Part shown: positions 39,289 to 46,966 of the stretch, one piece after another
Layout: each line of letters begins with the position of its first letter
How positions within the stretch are numbered: position 1 is the first letter of the stretch
Assembly (NCBI GenBank): GCA_012519205.1
Contig: JAAYQR010000015.1
Location: 1 to 46,966 of the forward strand
Direction of reading: 5' to 3'
Length of the DNA: 46,966 nucleotides
DNA from: Candidatus Epulonipiscium sp.
Lineage (GTDB): Bacteria; Bacillota; Clostridia; Lachnospirales; Defluviitaleaceae
Made by a program: the position numbers and the translations under genes
The notes under the pieces: generated by a model
Database searches by the model: none
What the model saw: only the letters and a program-made list of their open reading frames with translations
What the model was told of the DNA's origin: nothing

Positions 39289-41850
39289 TTACATACCACC
39301 CATGCCGCCTAATTGCTGCGTCAACCACTGGCTTTGGGCATTGGCTTTTTGCATAGCTGCTTCTAATCTAGCAAACATTGCATAATATCTTTCTTCCTTT
39401 TGCATCAGTCTATCTAATAGTTCATCTATCTTTTCGTTTTGTGCCTTTATCTGATTATATACGGTATTGTCATATTCGGTGGTTGTGCCTATTTGACCTG
39501 CTTTTTCTATAAGCAGTCCTTTTGAGCCGCTGATGGAACTGGTGCGAATATTATCTTGTAAAATATCGTACAGCCTATGAGCTAGACCCTGTTCCTTCAT
39601 TCTTTGATTACGATTCTTAGTATCTGTATATTCTACCGTGGATTCTTTTGTGAATAACTGAGTTATCTTATCAGGCATATCTTGGATTGCCTTTTTTAAT
39701 TTTTCTTCATTAATAACTAGTTTACCATTTTCCTGCCATATATTAGAAGTCGTAATTCCTATATCGTATAAGCCAATATCTAGCCCTTCTACCTTTTCAT
39801 ACAATACCCTTCTCATAGAAGATGCAATATTACTTAGGATATCTTCGCCTCTTAATACCCCTTGTTTTGCTTTTTCTTCCCAAAGCTTAATATCTGCTTC
39901 GGACATTTCTTTTCTTTGTTCTTCAGTTAGGGGTTCGTAATATTCATATTTGCCGGACCTTGCTCTTTTTTCACTATATTTGCCATTGATTGTATCTACT
40001 ATTTCATTATATTTATCTACAAATCCTATGATTTTTTCTACTAGTTGATCCGGATCGGTTCCAATTTTAATATCAAAGGTTTGACTAGGATCTACTTTTT
40101 TAGGATCTAGATTAATGGTGTATTTTATCCCATCTATATTAAAGGTATTCTCCGTCCTATTGGCATCAACCCCGTCTATATTAAATATAGCATCCTTTGC
40201 CTCGCTATAACCTATTTTTTCATACCCCGATTCGCTTGACTCACCAGTGATAAGATTCATTTTTCTAAATAAAGTGTTAGTGTTGGTGTCTGCATAATCC
40301 ATATTAAACTGTATATTATTCATAGAACCTGTTTTTGTTCCTTGGATGGTGAATGAATCTATAAAGGTACTATAGCGAATGCTTACCCCTATAGCACTAC
40401 CATTAATCTCATCCATCATTTGTTTTACTGTAATATCATTCCCGAATTCAAAGGTCTTTCCATTGAGTTCGAATTTAACATTCCCTTCGATTCCAAAGGC
40501 ATTCTCGATTTTTTCATCTAGGTTCAGAGTGTTTTTTGCTCCATTTTTAAAGCCTAGGTTTTCTACCACTGACGGGGTATTATTAGATACTTTGATTTGA
40601 TTGCCGTTGGTATTGGTGAACTTTAATTTGTTCCCATCTACTATGACCTGTACTCCCGTTTCACTTAGCTGACTTGTTATATCCTGTGCCAATACTTCTA
40701 AATCTTCTTCTTTATAGTCTTTTGTAAGTTCTATGAGATAATCCATGCCATCAACATTTATGCTAAATTCTTTTCCTGTATCATCTACATTTATATTAAC
40801 TGAACCTTCCATCCTTTTAATGGTAGCACCATTGCTTAGACCTAATTTGTCTAATACATTATCCGTATCTCCCGTGGAAAACTTGATTTCGTTTGAAGTA
40901 TCATAGGAAATAATCTGAAGCTTATTGTTCTCACCTATAGTTACTTTTACAATATTTCCTTCACCAAAGGCGCTGTTAATTTGTTGTTCTAAGCTTTCAG
41001 CTATATTGTCCTTTGTAAAATGAACATCTATTTCTTTTGCTTCTTCTCCATTAAGACTAACTTTTATTTTTCCTGTTATTTCTTCTGTAATATTTATTTC
41101 TTTTCCTGTTATTGCATTTGTTTGGCCATTGGAAAATCCTAGGGAGCTTACATATGTATTAGATACATTAGTAATCAAAAGTTCATGGCCCTTTGATTTG
41201 AATTCTAGACCGGCACCGTTTACTAAAACTTCTATATTACTTTTTGTAGTTTCCCCGTTATTGGTAATCCCAAAAGCTATATCAAATTTTTGTTGCAATT
41301 CTTCTTGTAATTGTGTGATATTGGTATAGCTGCCGTTTTCCCCACTACCGCCATCCAATCTAATTTTTTTAGTAACGCCATCATACGTCACATTAAATTC
41401 CTTACCTTTGGTTAAGGTCTTTAAGTTCTCTGCACTTATTTGCCTTCCTTTCATACCCCCTGAAACCGAGTCCGTTCCTTTCCAAACCGCCTCCTCAGCT
41501 ACTTGTTTCACTATCAAAGAGTGACTTCCTACTGCTGCCCCCGCTCCCGCTTCCACAGTAATACCTTCACTACTTACCCCACCAGATTTCACATTGGAGG
41601 TAAAAGCAGAAAAAGCAGTAGGCGAACGGAAGTTGTCTTTCATCTTGAGGTTATTAAAATAAGTGTCTTGAAACCCCCTAAGCAAATTAGCTATATCCCG
41701 AAACCCTTCTTGTTTCCATTGGAGCAGCTGAACTGCTTGTTTCATTTTATCTACTCGGGTGTATTCCACCTTCATCATTTGCTGTATAGCCATATCTGTG
41801 TCAATACCGGTAGCAATCCCTGTAAATCTTAATCTATTACTAGTAATCAT
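39289..41850 (-). CDS. fliD: Flagellar filament cap protein FliD (hook-associated protein 2), long form
   Basis: FliD caps the filament and folds incoming flagellin. The N-terminal domain (R-F-T-G-I-A-T-G-I-D-T-D, then helices) and the C-terminal domain, ending in a long helix, match the family. At 853 residues it is clearly longer than the common 450-700. The extra length comes from three similar segments of about 100 residues, each ending L-G-F/L-x-N-G-x (237-242, 336-341, 432-437). It ends G-G-M-G-G-M. The ATG follows AGGAGG, and a sigma-28-type promoter lies upstream. Confidence 0.95.
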   Translation of the reverse strand: MITSNRLRFTGIATGIDTDMAIQQMMKVEYTRVDKMKQAVQLLQWKQEGFRDIANLLRGFQDTYFNNLKMKDNFRSPTAFSAFTSNVKSGGVSSEGITVEAGAGAAVGSHSLIVKQVAEEAVWKGTDSVSGGMKGRQISAENLKTLTKGKEFNVTYDGVTKKIRLDGGSGENGSYTNITQLQEELQQKFDIAFGITNNGETTKSNIEVLVNGAGLEFKSKGHELLITNVSNTYVSSLGFSNGQTNAITGKEINITEEITGKIKVSLNGEEAKEIDVHFTKDNIAESLEQQINSAFGEGNIVKVTIGENNKLQIISYDTSNEIKFSTGDTDNVLDKLGLSNGATIKRMEGSVNINVDDTGKEFSINVDGMDYLIELTKDYKEEDLEVLAQDITSQLSETGVQVIVDGNKLKFTNTNGNQIKVSNNTPSVVENLGFKNGAKNTLNLDEKIENAFGIEGNVKFELNGKTFEFGNDITVKQMMDEINGSAIGVSIRYSTFIDSFTIQGTKTGSMNNIQFNMDYADTNTNTLFRKMNLITGESSESGYEKIGYSEAKDAIFNIDGVDANRTENTFNIDGIKYTINLDPKKVDPSQTFDIKIGTDPDQLVEKIIGFVDKYNEIVDTINGKYSEKRARSGKYEYYEPLTEEQRKEMSEADIKLWEEKAKQGVLRGEDILSNIASSMRRVLYEKVEGLDIGLYDIGITTSNIWQENGKLVINEEKLKKAIQDMPDKITQLFTKESTVEYTDTKNRNQRMKEQGLAHRLYDILQDNIRTSSISGSKGLLIEKAGQIGTTTEYDNTVYNQIKAQNEKIDELLDRLMQKEERYYAMFARLEAAMQKANAQSQWLTQQLGGMGGM

Positions 41851-41937: not shown

Positions 41938-41961
41938 CAAAAAAATCCCCTAAGGGGATTT
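41938..41961 (-). terminator. Terminator after the yjfB-like gene
   Basis: AATCCCC and GGGGATT (41944-41950 and 41954-41960) form a stem with a 3-base loop, followed by seven T on the minus strand. It overlaps the end of the yjfB-like gene. Confidence 0.85.
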
Positions 41962-42158
41962 TAGATGCTTATATCAATATTTTGTCCTAAATGGGGTTGT
42001 AGGGACTGTTCTAAAATATTACGGCTCACATCGGCCATTTTTAATATATATGTCATTTGCATTTTTGCTTGATCCATTACGTTCTTTAGCATGGTGGTAC
42101 TAACTTCTTGTTTTATCTGGGCTTGACTTAATACAGTTGACATGGCTTCAATATTCAT
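41961..42158 (-). CDS. YjfB family motility protein (putative)
   Basis: This 65-residue protein starts M-N-I-E-A-M-S-T-V-L-S-Q-A and has M-L-K-N-V-M-D-Q-A, the pattern of the small YjfB family found in Firmicutes and often controlled by the motility sigma factor. Its function is unknown. The ATG follows AGGGGGAG, and a terminator follows the gene. It is downstream of the CDP-glycerol-transferase-like gene, 21 bases away. Confidence 0.75.
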   Translation of the reverse strand: MNIEAMSTVLSQAQIKQEVSTTMLKNVMDQAKMQMTYILKMADVSRNILEQSLQPHLGQNIDISI

Positions 42159-42179: not shown

Positions 42180-43691
42180 TTATTCGATATGGGAGTCTAA
42201 AGTCCTTTGTATTTCTTCTTCCATTATCAGATTATGCACTTTTTTCCCACATGTGCCATCCATATTTTCCATTAATGTATCTAATTCCTTAAGACGCTTG
42301 TCCCTTTCATCATCCCTATTTTCTATAATCTTTTGGCAAAACATATCTATGTTCATTCCATCTTCTATAAAGTATGCTATATGTTCATCAAATGGTAAAA
42401 AGTACTCTTCAAAATCTTTCTTTCTGCCATAAATGTATAATACAGGTTTTCCTGTAGCTAGGTATTCTATTGTCCAGGAGCTAACATCACTGACCATTCC
42501 ATCTGATATAATAGTTGCGATTTTATTATCCAAGGTACTATCCAAAATAAAATTGCTTTTTCTCATTATTCTTTGTTCAATATTTTCGTATCTTTCTATC
42601 CAATGGTTTTTCATAGATAAAACCGTTTGTTTTAACAAAGGATGGGGGCGCCAAAGTAAAACTATCCCTTCCTTTGAAGTTAATTCTTCTAATAATATTT
42701 CTAAGTTATCAAGATAATTGTCACTGTTTAATAAGTTTTTTATACTTGAGTTCAATGCTATGACCTTTTTATCCCCGATTTTATCCAACCACTCCTGTGG
42801 TATTTCAATATTTTCTTTTTTTAAGTTTACAAAGGCATCTATTTTAGGGGAACCACATAATAATAATTTTTCTGATTCGAATCCGTACTTAAGATATAAG
42901 TCATATAATACTTTTGATTGCAAAATAACCTTATCTGCATATATTATACCAGGCAATCTGATTTTATTTAAAAATTCTTCCTCTGTACCTACAGTGCCTA
43001 AAATATAATAAGAACTATATACTAATAGTTCCGTATAATTTTTTAATTTTTTGCTATAGAAATCTGGATGTACGCTGGTTACGAGATTGAATTCATCATA
43101 TGGATTATGAAAATAAATTATATCAGGATGTCTTTTTTTGATATCATATTCCTTCCAGTTAGTTATAGGCACATACTCTGGAAGTTCGTTCCCTTCATAA
43201 TGCATTTCGCCAAATGAACCATCTGCATTTCTATCATAATAAGGGATTGGTATAACATATGTATTACAATTAGAATCCTCCTTAGCGGCCATCCATATGC
43301 TTTCCATACTATCCCACATCGAATACTTATATGGAAGAAATGCTATCTCCGTCTTTGCTTCTGGAATATCATATTTAACACTATTAATAATCCTATAACT
43401 TTGTTTTTGAAATTCCTTTAGGGTGTTCTTTGGGCTTATATTCATAGCAAATGCTTGATTTAGCTCATGTATTATTTTGCAATACTTTTCTATCATATGG
43501 ATAGTATTTACTTCTTTTCCCTCAGTTTCCCTTACAATATCTTTTATTTCAATAACCCCTTCTTGACAATCTTTTAAAATATGATTGGCTACATCAAAGT
43601 TTCCCTTTTTTATCTCATTATTTAATACTTTCCTTGCTTTCTCCATAGTATAAAGCAAAGAAAGTATATCTCTTTTTAAATACCTTCTCAT
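42180..43691 (-). CDS. CDP-glycerol glycerophosphotransferase-type protein, likely flagellar modification
   Basis: This 503-residue protein has an N-terminal helical part (about 1-110) and a GT-B-like C-terminal half. Recognisable parts are G-S-P-K-I-D (280-285), W-R-P-H-P (347-351) and S-D-V-S-S-W-T-I-E-Y-L-A-T-G-K-P-V-L-Y (401-419). These are the pattern of the TagF/CDP-glycerol:poly(glycerophosphate) glycerophosphotransferase family. No membrane segment is obvious. Position between flagellin and fliD suggests a transferase for flagellin glycan. Substrate is not known; wall teichoic acid synthesis is less likely in this locus. Confidence 0.75.
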   Translation of the reverse strand: MRRYLKRDILSLLYTMEKARKVLNNEIKKGNFDVANHILKDCQEGVIEIKDIVRETEGKEVNTIHMIEKYCKIIHELNQAFAMNISPKNTLKEFQKQSYRIINSVKYDIPEAKTEIAFLPYKYSMWDSMESIWMAAKEDSNCNTYVIPIPYYDRNADGSFGEMHYEGNELPEYVPITNWKEYDIKKRHPDIIYFHNPYDEFNLVTSVHPDFYSKKLKNYTELLVYSSYYILGTVGTEEEFLNKIRLPGIIYADKVILQSKVLYDLYLKYGFESEKLLLCGSPKIDAFVNLKKENIEIPQEWLDKIGDKKVIALNSSIKNLLNSDNYLDNLEILLEELTSKEGIVLLWRPHPLLKQTVLSMKNHWIERYENIEQRIMRKSNFILDSTLDNKIATIISDGMVSDVSSWTIEYLATGKPVLYIYGRKKDFEEYFLPFDEHIAYFIEDGMNIDMFCQKIIENRDDERDKRLKELDTLMENMDGTCGKKVHNLIMEEEIQRTLDSHIE

Positions 43692-43700
43692 ATATATACC

Positions 43701-43877
43701 CTACCTTCTATAACTTAAAATCTTTCTAGTTATATCAATTTTTGACGGTGTTAAAGTTATTGATAAATAATTTGGTACTGCATTACACTTTATTCCAATA
43801 ATATCTTCAATAACCGCTGCAATCCTAGGAGCCATGTAAGATGGAAATGAACCTATAATCTTCTTTATATTTTTCAA
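43701..43877 (-). pseudogene. Short remnant or small ORF of 58 codons
   Basis: From a TTG at 43877 (in-frame stop 24 bases upstream) the reading M-K-N-I-K-K-I-I-G-S-F-P-S-Y-M-A-P-R runs to P-S-K-I-D-I-T-R-K-I-L-S-Y-R-R and a stop. It looks like coding sequence: the peptide has balanced composition and normal codon choice, unlike the flanking AT-rich DNA. It has no good start site, so I read it as the 3' remnant of a lost gene. The parent family was not recognised. A real small protein is the alternative. The rest of the 327-nt gap holds a hairpin. Confidence 0.45.
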
Positions 43878-43962
43878 ATATCTGCTAATAAATAGTCTCT
43901 AACTAAATAAAGTGACTATATATTATTGGTTTTATAATAAATCTCATTATTTATATATTTAA

Positions 43963-44000
43963 TGGGGGTACAGATATTATTGCTTGTATAATATTCCCCC
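43963..44000 (-). terminator. Imperfect hairpin after GT2-TPR gene
   Basis: GGGGG pairs with CCCCC, and inside, ATATTAT pairs with ATAATAT around a TGCTTGT loop; the two stems are separated by an asymmetric bulge. It lies 19 bases past the stop of the upstream gene. The downstream sequence is AT-rich but not a U run, so it may be a weak terminator or an RNA end stabiliser. Confidence 0.45.
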
Positions 44001-44018
44001 TATATGCTAATAATCATC

Positions 44019-46295
44019 TTATTCCTTGTATAATTTATTAATAATCCCTTGAATTTGGTTCTTATATTCTTCATTTGGTGCAGCTTTATATGCTTCTTTA
44101 TATAATAAATTAGCTATACTGATTTCTTTTGTTATTTCACATAAATAGGCCCCATTACATAATAAATCAAAATTTCTAGGGTATTTTAATAAGCCTTCTT
44201 TAATGACTCTTTTTGCTTTATCTGTACTATTTTGCAACATAGCAATAGTGCTTTTAGTTGAATATATAAAAGAATCATCTTTTATTATAGCTTCATATTC
44301 TTTTATCATTGAATCTACCTCATCAATTTTCCCTTCTTGAAGTAATTGATTAATATTTATTTGAAGGTTGTTTTTCAAACTGTTAAACTCTAAGTTTTGA
44401 TTAATTAGATTTCTATATTCATCAATATATAATTCTATTCCTTTTTTCATAACTGGAAAAACCCTTAGAGCTTTTTTAAGGTAGCTTATGGATTTGGATA
44501 AGTCTTCAAACTTCATACTTATGGCTTTATCCATATACATAAGAAATCTTTCTTCATCGTTTTTTAGGTATTGTTCTAATTCGTCTTCTAGTATATGTTC
44601 TTGATAAGTATATTTCATTAAAAGATTACCATTAGCAACATATCTTTCTAAAATGCCCCTGTAGTAATTATCCTCTAGACTTTCATCCAATAGTAAAGCC
44701 TTAAGTAAAATCTTAGTAACATGGGCTGTTTTGATATTAAGAATAGGATACTGATTTTTTATATACTTAAATAAAATATCAAAGGACCTTTTACTTTTTT
44801 CATTTAATATATATTGTATATAATTAAATATTTTTTCTTCCCTAACCTGAGATAAATATTCCTCTATGGGGCTTCCTTCTATGATATTGTACCATAGGAT
44901 ATCTCCATAAAAATGAGGTAGTTTTACAAAATCCAGTGTTTTTATGTCTTTTTTAATGTTTCCTAGACTACTAAAATTACCCTCCTGCAGTGCAATTCTA
45001 ACTTTACTTAATAATCCATAATTATCTTCATAAGAACTAAATTGCTTTTCAAGTGCTATCTTTTCATCTAAGCTTATATTTTCTTTAAGTAGTTCTATAT
45101 TATTTATAAAGCTTTCTTTTAAATCCTCCCCTTCTACCTTTATCTTATTGTAATATTCTTTTAGTTCTTTCCATCGATTCAGTCTTATGTAAGATAGTAT
45201 TATGGAGTGATATATAGAGTCCAAAACCCCTGCCTTATCAAAACTTATTTTATCTTTTATATCTAATACTTTTTCATATTCTCCTATATCTGAATAAAGC
45301 AAACATAAATCCCCATAAACTTCTTCCACTGAATCGATAGTTAAAGTAGGTGTAACCATATCCTTATAACCGGCATAACTTTTATAATCCATGGCCATTT
45401 CAATATACTTTTCAAAGGTTTTGATTGCTTCTTTGTTTTTAAGCAGAGCTTGTTGTGCTTTACCTAAGTAAAAATATGCATCTATATATTCGTCACTAAT
45501 TTCTATAGTTTTTTTTGCTACTTCTAAGACTTTTTTATATTTATTATTAAATAATGCAACATGCAATAAATGTATATAAATATATATCATAGTAACCTTT
45601 TTTTCTTTAGCCAATTCATATGCCCTTTCCGCATAATATAAAGCTGTCTTATGATCTTTATACATCCCATAAGACTGAGATATTTGAAATAGGTAATAAA
45701 CATTATCAGGATTCTTTTCTAATTCCTGTTCTAAAATTTCTACATTTCTTTTAAATTTTCTTTTCATCAATACTGGATCAGATGATACATATCCATAATG
45801 TTCAAGTACCGTTTCAAGATGATGGAAAGGTTCTGCCACTAAAGGCTGTTCATGAACTGCACCACTATATTTAAAATCAGGGGTGTTTTTAAACAATCTC
45901 ATCATGGGTATAATGTTCCAATCGCTTTCATTTTCATTTAAAAAGTTCTTAATACTTAGAACGCAAGTCCTATATTCCTTATATTTTTTAGTCCTAAAAA
46001 ACTCGATAATTGTTTCTGGATTGCTCACTATTTCATCAGCATCTAATATAAATAGCCATTGACCCTTAGCATGGCTAATAGATATATTTCTCATCTTAGC
46101 AAAATCATTTTCCCAAGGATGCTCGTATACCTTTTTTGTATGGCTTTTAGCTATCTCTATAGTTTTGTCCGTGGAGCCTGTGTCTAAAATAATTAGCTCA
46201 GAAGGAATACCTTCTAATATTGGTTTTAAATTAGTAAGACATTTATATAAATATTTTTCTTCGTTTTTAACCATCATAACAATACTAAGTAACAT
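44019..46295 (-). CDS. TPR-containing family 2 glycosyltransferase, probable flagellin glycosyltransferase
   Basis: This 758-residue protein starts with a GT2 domain (about 1-230) that has M-V-K-N-E-E (8-13), L-D-T-G-S-T-D (37-43) and the metal/nucleotide-sugar motif D-A-D at 85-87. The remaining part (about 190-750) is mostly helical with TPR-like pairs (for example Y-Y-L-F-Q-I-S-Q-S-Y, then A-L-Y-Y-A-E-R-A-Y). No membrane segment is seen. This GT2-TPR architecture next to flagellin in Clostridia is a flagellin glycosylation pattern; the sugar is unknown. Confidence 0.82.
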   Translation of the reverse strand: MLLSIVMMVKNEEKYLYKCLTNLKPILEGIPSELIILDTGSTDKTIEIAKSHTKKVYEHPWENDFAKMRNISISHAKGQWLFILDADEIVSNPETIIEFFRTKKYKEYRTCVLSIKNFLNENESDWNIIPMMRLFKNTPDFKYSGAVHEQPLVAEPFHHLETVLEHYGYVSSDPVLMKRKFKRNVEILEQELEKNPDNVYYLFQISQSYGMYKDHKTALYYAERAYELAKEKKVTMIYIYIHLLHVALFNNKYKKVLEVAKKTIEISDEYIDAYFYLGKAQQALLKNKEAIKTFEKYIEMAMDYKSYAGYKDMVTPTLTIDSVEEVYGDLCLLYSDIGEYEKVLDIKDKISFDKAGVLDSIYHSIILSYIRLNRWKELKEYYNKIKVEGEDLKESFINNIELLKENISLDEKIALEKQFSSYEDNYGLLSKVRIALQEGNFSSLGNIKKDIKTLDFVKLPHFYGDILWYNIIEGSPIEEYLSQVREEKIFNYIQYILNEKSKRSFDILFKYIKNQYPILNIKTAHVTKILLKALLLDESLEDNYYRGILERYVANGNLLMKYTYQEHILEDELEQYLKNDEERFLMYMDKAISMKFEDLSKSISYLKKALRVFPVMKKGIELYIDEYRNLINQNLEFNSLKNNLQININQLLQEGKIDEVDSMIKEYEAIIKDDSFIYSTKSTIAMLQNSTDKAKRVIKEGLLKYPRNFDLLCNGAYLCEITKEISIANLLYKEAYKAAPNEEYKNQIQGIINKLYKE

Positions 46296-46419: not shown

Positions 46420-46966
46420 TTATCTTAATAATTGAAGTACTCCTCGAGGTGCTTGGTTTGCTTGAGCAAGCATTGCCGTTGCAGCCTGTTGAAGAATATT
46501 AGTTCTTGTAAAGTTCATCATTTCTTGCGCCATATCTGTATCACGGATACGAGATTCGGAAGCTTGAAGGTTTTCTGCAGCAACGTCTAAATTCTTGATG
46601 GTATGTTCAAGTCTATTTTGAACCGCCCCAAGTTTAGCTCTTTCGCTAGAAACTTTTTCAATAGCTGTATTTACTGTTTCAACTAATGAACTAATAGCCG
46701 CACCTGTTGAAGTAGAGTTTGCAACAATAGATCCAATATTTGCAGATGCTACTGTTAAAGCTTCAGCACTCATTGTACCTATGGTAAATTCAATCTTTTG
46801 CCCTTCATTTGCACCAACTTGAAGATATACAGAAGCTGATGCTAAAGAACCATTTAATAATTTCTTAGTATTAAACTCTGTTTTTGTAGTAATATCTGTA
46901 ATTTCTTGTGAAAGTTGATTTAATTCTTCAGCAATCTTCTCACGATCTGATTTTGTATAAGTATCA
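46420..46966 (-). CDS. Flagellin, C-terminal part (truncated by window edge)
   Basis: About 181 codons are visible; the start lies outside the window. The open frame continues without stop to the edge (first full codon GAT at 46965). The end has the D1/D0 features E-K-V-S-S-E-R-A-K-L-G-A-V-Q-N-R-L-E-H, N-L-D-V-A-A-E-N-L-Q-A-S-E-S-R-I-R-D-T-D and L-Q-Q-A-A-T-A-M-L-A-Q-A-N-Q, and ends in L-L-R. The upstream portion (T-K-T-E-F-N-T-K-K-L-L-N-G) is the end of the N-terminal helical domain, so the variable central part is short and the protein is probably small. Confidence 0.95.
   Translation of the reverse strand, partial: DTYTKSDREKIAEELNQLSQEITDITTKTEFNTKKLLNGSLASASVYLQVGANEGQKIEFTIGTMSAEALTVASANIGSIVANSTSTGAAISSLVETVNTAIEKVSSERAKLGAVQNRLEHTIKNLDVAAENLQASESRIRDTDMAQEMMNFTRTNILQQAATAMLAQANQAPRGVLQLLR

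Follow-up and report, generated by a model that had tools for sequence, protein, structure and literature searches.

The closest described counterpart of the locus considered here is the type A flagellin modification locus of Clostridioides difficile 630 (CD0240-CD0244). It lies downstream of flagellin and, according to a revised model, its glycosyltransferase CD0240 and then the TagF-like phosphotransferase CD0244, a protein also resembling UDP-GlcNAc (uridine diphosphate N-acetylglucosamine) 2-epimerase, act in turn on FliC (PMC10714395). In Pseudomonas aeruginosa PAO1, a GT2 glycosyltransferase and a phosphotransferase likewise form a unit in the b-type glycan locus (PA1088-PA1091), with both activities residing in one gene, PA1091 (PMC11833859). 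Flagellin glycosylation islands of Geobacillus are located between the flagellin gene and flaG, and one strain has tagD in its island; the text of that study contains neither the word teichoic nor glycerophosphotransferase (PMC5109656). Among TagF-like capsule polymerases, some display a GT-A/TagF architecture and most possess a TPR-rich domain, the enzymes CslB, Cps1B and Cps3D combining GT-A, TagF-like and TPR modules for sugar-phosphate units (PMC5974469). Here, a related locus from Candidatus Epulonipiscium sp. is described, located in a stretch of 46,966 bases (hereafter the window) which represents the whole of contig C15 of genome G000 (2.13 Mb, 98.75% complete). Between flagellin and fliD, this locus encodes a glycosyltransferase composed of a GT2 domain and TPR repeats (GT2-TPR) and a TagF-related protein with GT-B fold. 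With moderate confidence, the pair is read as a reduced type-A-like flagellin modification locus, in which GT2-TPR would add a sugar and the TagF-related protein a phosphodiester-linked group.

The locus shares with type A its position downstream of flagellin as well as the pairing of a glycosyltransferase with a TagF-like protein of double resemblance. In contrast to type A, genes resembling CD0241 (phosphatase), CD0242 (cytidylyltransferase) and CD0243 (methyltransferase) are missing between flagellin and fliD, the search for CD0241- and CD0243-like genes having been limited to the locus. The likeness to CD0244 follows its published description; no C. difficile record is found among the best 80 of 470 loci with relatives of the TagF-related protein. 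The preliminary description of this DNA had noted two clear modification enzymes between flagellin and fliD, other partners being absent or decayed, and had drawn the parallel to the glycosyltransferase and TagF-like protein of type A. All of this agrees with the present analysis and with the published model: both open reading frames (ORFs) are intact and of full length compared to their relatives, and only a yjfB gene and one 58-codon relic have to be added. Because CD0241-0243 partners are missing from the locus and a TagF signature motif (WHG, see below) is absent, membership of type A is not given; the locus is best regarded as a reduced form of an already known type of flagellin modification locus, for which the type A analogy is reasonable. 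Compared to PAO1, two genes take the place of one and CDP-threonine (CDP, cytidine diphosphate) pathway genes are absent from the locus, as is the tagD of the Geobacillus island. The capsule polymerases differ in being single polypeptides that make a capsule polymer, whereas the window holds two proteins in a flagellar locus and no WHG motif.

The GT2-TPR gene (758 residues; 44019-46295, minus strand) is located next to the C-terminal part of the flagellin gene (46420-46965, minus strand; PF00700, E 1.2e-29), the frame of which runs off the contig end. The contig stops inside this gene at position 46966; assembly breaks inside flagellin are often caused by repeated flagellin genes. Family PF00535 (E 9.2e-19) covers residues 4-100 of GT2-TPR and includes a DxD motif (D85-A-D87), while TPR families match later parts. 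The AlphaFold2 model (mean predicted local distance difference test score, pLDDT, 80.7; predicted template modelling score, pTM, 0.58; pLDDT below 50 in parts of 119-171 and at 306-317) displays a GT-A-like start followed by a helical TPR solenoid through to the end. By sequence, the closest solved chains are GmaR (22ao, E 1.4e-29) and SunS (7msp, E 5.9e-18), the score against the NCBIfam SunS equivalog (63.4 bits) remaining below its cut-off of 350 bits. Listeria GmaR is not known to have a phosphotransferase partner. Despite the relatedness of the GT2 domains, Listeria GmaR differs from the window protein in acting as anti-repressor of MogR (PMC9638930). G000 holds a single GT2-TPR match, the gene itself, and matches occur in 38 of the 57 genomes searched, most of them covering the GT domain only. 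Near-full matches (~740 or more of the 758 residues) outside G000 are restricted to G001, the nearest relative and a genome of the same family (69% identity over 758 residues), G054 (39%) and G028 (38%); G030 matches residues 1-679 at 26%. All three near-full relatives directly adjoin flagellin, as judged by marker in G001 and by reading of the ORF sequences in G054 and G028. The relative in G054 (L041:7862-11260) carries a second GT2 domain and that in G028 (L042:8874-12776) a methyltransferase-like domain. These are the extra domains of both proteins, and a fusion of GT2-TPR to TagF was thereby ruled out.

The TagF-related protein (503 residues; 42180-43691, minus strand), a candidate GT-B phosphotransferase, matches PF04464 with 32.7 bits (Pfam curated cut-off 22.1) over residues 269-489 only, and several of its kin score below that cut-off or give no match at all. 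Alignment by hhalign with five classical TagF-type proteins spans residues 252-492 with a probability of 97.2% (E 4.7e-11) and places both H350 and the DxSS motif in register. Over the 95 rows of the family alignment, H350 and Tyr228 are invariant (95/95 each), and within DxSS, D402 and S404 are conserved in 86/95 rows each and S405 in 94/95; the window protein retains these positions together with Gly280, Pro282 and Lys283. The catalytic histidines of TagF are H444 and H584 (PMC5974469), and the HP motif of H350 would correspond to the second of these, judging from alignments to 3l7i and from sequence reading. In its AlphaFold2 model (pLDDT 91, pTM 0.88), four N-terminal helices (residues 3-108) precede a GT-B core (111-499), and the model aligns with TagF 3l7j at Z 23.3 (VIA-align; 334 residues aligned, root-mean-square deviation 4.2), with TarL at Z 21.1 and with capsule enzymes at about 21. 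Against the PDB by sequence, the protein yielded two matches at chance level only (E 0.32 and 0.97), and a profile search none at E 0.1. Across its length, L058 is a close relative (residues 1-493 at 45%), and one plasmid record, a 2.7-Mb Paenibacillus replicon, gave a match. The preliminary designation of the protein as a CDP-glycerol-type transferase is supported insofar as PF04464 is over cut-off, whereas the missing WHG motif and the association of its closest kin with ribitol-type cytidylyltransferases leave a canonical CDP-glycerol transferase unsupported.

These associations emerge from the neighbourhoods of the family. Scanning named genomes yielded 470 confirmed relatives of the TagF-related protein, of which the 80 best matches to the query were kept. 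Within the class, 24 of 391 genomes contain a match, in some cases a weak or partial one. The marker search comprised 100 loci: the window, 80 loci of named genomes, 11 of the class sample and 8 of relatives (L035-L040, L043 and L044). Removal of a duplicate, L063 and L218 being one identical contig, left 99 distinct ones. Neighbourhoods were fetched for 12 of the 24 class genomes, of which G139 (L220) lacks the TagF-related marker and was not counted; beyond these 12, G012 and G056 stem from another set and G000 is the window. L040 and L043, both weak matches, were included, and FlgL in L210 and L212 was not counted as flagellin. Flagellin is present in the fetched stretch of 14 of the 99 loci. 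Among these 14, 12 carry GT2-TPR (5/85 of the others) and ten a cytidylyltransferase marker (21/85 of the others; Fisher p 0.001), nine of IspD/TarI type, with the TarI marker alone unable to separate ribitol-type enzymes from IspD, and one of phosphoenolpyruvate (PEP) mutase type. The enrichment of the marker persists after exclusion of the window (10/13, p 4e-4) and in stretches of at least 15 kb (10/13 versus 18/52, p 0.011). In most flagellin-linked kin, a cytidylyltransferase, usually of ribitol-5-phosphate type, thus shares the island, which suggests a recurring layout in Bacillota of flagellin, GT2-TPR, cytidylyltransferase and TagF-related gene into which the window pair fits.

In the family tree, built from 95 rows after omission of three short ORFs, the protein of the window belongs to a clade of eight rows (support 100/99) together with L058, L053, L054, L055, L216 and L063/L218. 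A TarI-type marker is present in the stretches of L058, L053, L054, L055 and L216, and the contig of L063/L218 stops right after the TagF-related gene. The companions of L216, L054 and L058 were scored with the D-ribitol-5-phosphate cytidylyltransferase model (cut-off 166), giving 187.8, 185.9 and 186.6 bits, respectively, and remaining below the IspD cut-off. Genome G162 (L216) displays the order flagellin, GT2-TPR, LicD, ribitol-5-phosphate cytidylyltransferase, epimerase, TagF-related gene, five further ORFs and fliD, a second LicD marker being included among the genes after the TagF-related one. Unlike these ribitol-type flagellin loci (G162, L054, L058), the window island has no D-ribitol-5-phosphate cytidylyltransferase. 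Since 85/99 loci show no flagellin in the fetched stretch, the wider family is not flagellin-specific. Within the window clade, markers and reading leave only L053, a 13-kb contig, without a flagellar gene, and the three near-full GT2-TPR relatives stand beside flagellin.

In the nearest relative, G001, the gene order is flagellin, GT2-TPR, a classical TagF (PF04464, E 2.1e-53) with a TPR stretch at its N-terminus, flaG and fliD. This classical TagF (L034:7904-9445) is located where the window has the TagF-related gene, and its TPR stretch is homologous to the end of the window GT2-TPR (31% identity to residues 639-755). By sequence, the slot next to GT2-TPR is filled by a TagF-type protein twice, with different proteins in window and G001. 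The TagD of G001 (glycerol-3-phosphate cytidylyltransferase, TIGR01518; 211 bits, cut-off 165) sits on another contig, so that a donor enzyme encoded away from the flagellin locus is plausible for this bacterial family. ORFs, Pfam families and ribitol/TarI markers revealed no cytidylyltransferase in the window locus, and G000 was searched with four nucleotidyltransferase families (PF01467, PF01128, PF12804 and PF00483). Of five PF01467 genes, four read, by the beginnings of their sequences and their gene neighbours, as CoaD, NadD, RibF and TmcAL, the fifth being a fusion gene on contig C27. PF01128 retrieved IspD and GlmU, and this IspD (257.8 bits, cut-off 181.3; upstream neighbours as in G001) also exceeds the cut-off of the ribitol model by 0.5 bit (166.5 versus 166). 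PF12804 and PF00483 added a MocA-like gene (107.8 bits on a partial stretch, cut-off 186.5), GalU (411 bits), two GlgC-type genes and, again, the C27 fusion. The preliminary description had pointed to CDP-alditol or nucleotidyltransferase genes elsewhere in the genome as a check; the four families yielded genes that look like housekeeping enzymes and this one fusion. With no cytidylyltransferase in the locus or recognised in the genome, the donor would have to be supplied by another part of metabolism or be of a sort for which no dedicated enzyme is required.

Downstream of the TagF-related gene follow the genes for a putative motility protein of the YjfB family (65 residues; 41961-42158, minus strand; PF14070, E 9.3e-18) and for the filament cap FliD (39289-41850, minus strand; PF07195, E 3.8e-45; PF02465, E 2.9e-17), with flgN and then flaG beyond fliD. 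The gap between the two enzyme genes (43692-44018) is stop-ridden except for a stretch of 58 codons (43701-43877, minus strand), the relic mentioned above. It marginally matches an intact ORF of G139 (L152:2032-3132; PF02317, E 5.6e-22) over 38 residues with 34% identity, at E 5e-4 when the relic served as query without composition correction and at 0.08-0.09 in the reverse, corrected direction. The relic itself gave no Pfam or NCBIfam match up to E 1 and no match to plasmid records at E 1; its derivation from an opine-dehydrogenase-like gene is proposed tentatively. The matched ORF in G139 adjoins an ORF weakly matched by the TagF-related profile. Overall G+C of the two enzyme genes amounts to 27.7% and 30.3%, compared to a mean of 36.6% for the remaining window genes. 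Their third-position G+C (0.21 and 0.27) falls within the spread of the other window genes (0.247, standard deviation 0.046), and for this reason low overall G+C was not taken as a sign of horizontal transfer and the idea of a horizontal island was dropped.

In the proposed modification pathway, GT2-TPR probably binds flagellin in the cytoplasm via its TPR solenoid and, considering its similarity to GmaR and SunS as well as its position, probably attaches the first sugar, GlcNAc being the most likely one, to Ser/Thr. The TagF-related enzyme would then use a nucleotide-activated donor to link a phosphate-bound group to this sugar, probably yielding a phosphodiester as in type A. Candidates for this donor are a CDP-alditol whose source was not recognised, a UDP-HexNAc (HexNAc, N-acetylhexosamine) and a phosphonate activated with cytidine monophosphate (CMP). 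Several observations weigh against such a phosphotransfer pathway. The WHG motif with the first TagF catalytic histidine (H444) is absent from the whole protein, which is therefore named TagF-related and not a TagF member. Tyr228 may follow the strand where reading would place the WHG histidine, a half of the protein that hhalign did not align. Residue 227 is Ser compared to Pro in 94/95 rows, a replacement that could reflect drift. UDP-GlcNAc 2-epimerases score up to Z 24.7 in VIA-align, slightly above TagF, and provide the first eight Foldseek matches; with scores this close, the fold cannot discriminate between TagF and epimerase. Four of the 14 flagellin-linked loci, window included, are without cytidylyltransferase marker. 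Locus counts are not independent either, because some genomes contribute more than one locus (G033 three, G025 two, besides several named pairs) and the fetched stretches differ in length (3 to 21 kb; window 47 kb). Finally, no dedicated donor enzyme of TagD or ribitol type was recognised with the four families in a genome of this completeness. The earlier idea of a compact pathway adding a polyol-phosphate or phosphorylated sugar is partly supported, by flagellin context and enzyme pair, while its self-sufficiency is not borne out.

In an alternative that is judged unlikely, the TagF-related enzyme would take an ordinary UDP-sugar, UDP-GlcNAc, and add HexNAc-1-phosphate; a cytidylyltransferase would then be neither needed nor missing. 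TagF-like capsule polymerases are known to transfer hexose-phosphate as well as glycerol-phosphate (PMC5974469), G000 possesses GalU and, by reading, a GlmU-like gene, and the strong fold match is to epimerases that bind UDP-GlcNAc. Against such a donor stand the cytidylyltransferase markers in 10/14 flagellin-linked loci and the ribitol-type enzymes of the nearest kin. The epimerase fold match, two kin with PF02350 matches below cut-off and the lack of the first histidine motif could also mean that the protein is a UDP-GlcNAc 2-epimerase-like or other GT-B enzyme altering or extending the sugar. This is judged very improbable, considering that the window protein is over the cut-off of PF04464 and shows no PF02350 match up to E 1, that the donor domain aligns with classical TagF, H350 and DxSS included, and that flagellin-linked loci have cytidylyltransferase neighbours. 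Moreover, CD0244 shows the same double resemblance, and an epimerase role was judged unsupported by mutant data there (PMC10714395). Alternatively, the TagF-related gene might be the orphan of a decaying island after loss of ribitol cytidylyltransferase, LicD and epimerase, with only the first sugar still being added. The partners of fuller loci are indeed absent, the two enzyme genes are separated by the remains of another gene and the conserved Pro227 is replaced, but the 503-codon frame is intact and H350, Tyr228, Gly280, Pro282, Lys283 and DxSS are all kept, making decay an improbable explanation.

A phosphonate donor is about equally improbable. According to this explanation, CMP-hydroxyethyl- or CMP-aminoethylphosphonate would be provided by the C27 fusion and glycosylated flagellin would gain a C-P bond. 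The fusion protein (669 residues) combines PF12804, PF01467 and PEP mutase (417 bits, cut-off 319.6), is preceded by phosphonopyruvate decarboxylase (Ppd; 475 bits, cut-off 312.5) and followed by an iron-containing alcohol dehydrogenase (Fe-ADH; 238 bits, below the PsrA cut-off of 423.7), and is the sole such CMP-activating candidate recognised in G000. Triple fusions of this kind make up 42/1485 PEP mutases; two PF12804 enzymes are described to activate aminoethylphosphonate, and the PF01467 domain of Fom1 activates hydroxyethylphosphonate (PMC6697681). Together with a classical TagF (PF04464, 175 bits) and a flippase-like gene, the decarboxylase, fusion and Fe-ADH genes (L045:8947-15845) read as a polysaccharide cluster, which probably makes a phosphonate-decorated surface glycan. 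As C27 thus has its own classical TagF and flippase-like gene, its phosphonate is more likely intended for polysaccharide. In favour of a flagellar use, a TagF-related gene of G033 overlaps a PEP mutase/CTP-transferase gene by four bases within the flagellin island, 8 kb from flagellin, and a second one, elsewhere on this contig, lies immediately next to Ppd, Fe-ADH and a PntC-like gene. The two TagF-related genes and their phosphonate neighbours (L038:4433-16230, L037:6240-11473) are located in or near this G033 island, which also contains a methyltransferase gene and radical-SAM-like genes between flagellin and TagF-related gene. G252 has flagellin, GT2-TPR, TagF-related, TagD-like and TarI-type genes, with a C27-like fusion and Fe-ADH and Ppd markers ~32 kb away on the same contig. 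The window protein, however, clusters with ribitol-type kin and not with the G033 proteins. Class-wide, PEP mutase occurs in 4/24 genomes with the TagF-related gene compared to 28/367 others (p 0.12; 3/23, p 0.41 without G000), and phosphonate as general donor of the family was rejected on the grounds of this non-significant co-occurrence. Literature searches covering titles and abstract starts found nothing on flagellin phosphonates, and one pairing CDP-ribitol with flagellin found nothing either. If a phosphonate donor applied nevertheless, additional examples would be provided by G033 and G252, where phosphonate genes share the contig with flagellin, and the donor (ribitol-phosphate, glycerol-phosphate or phosphonate) would be a swappable module of one flagellin phosphotransferase family.

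Phosphate-linked flagellin glycans are already established in C. difficile and P. aeruginosa. The present analysis suggests a broader layout in Bacillota, in which GT2-TPR is paired with a divergent TagF-related transferase, and the differing types of neighbouring cytidylyltransferases (ribitol-5-phosphate, glycerol-3-phosphate, phosphonate) hint at differing decorations. A clean test case for the real donor of these transferases is offered by a genome in which both genes persist but no donor enzyme can be recognised.

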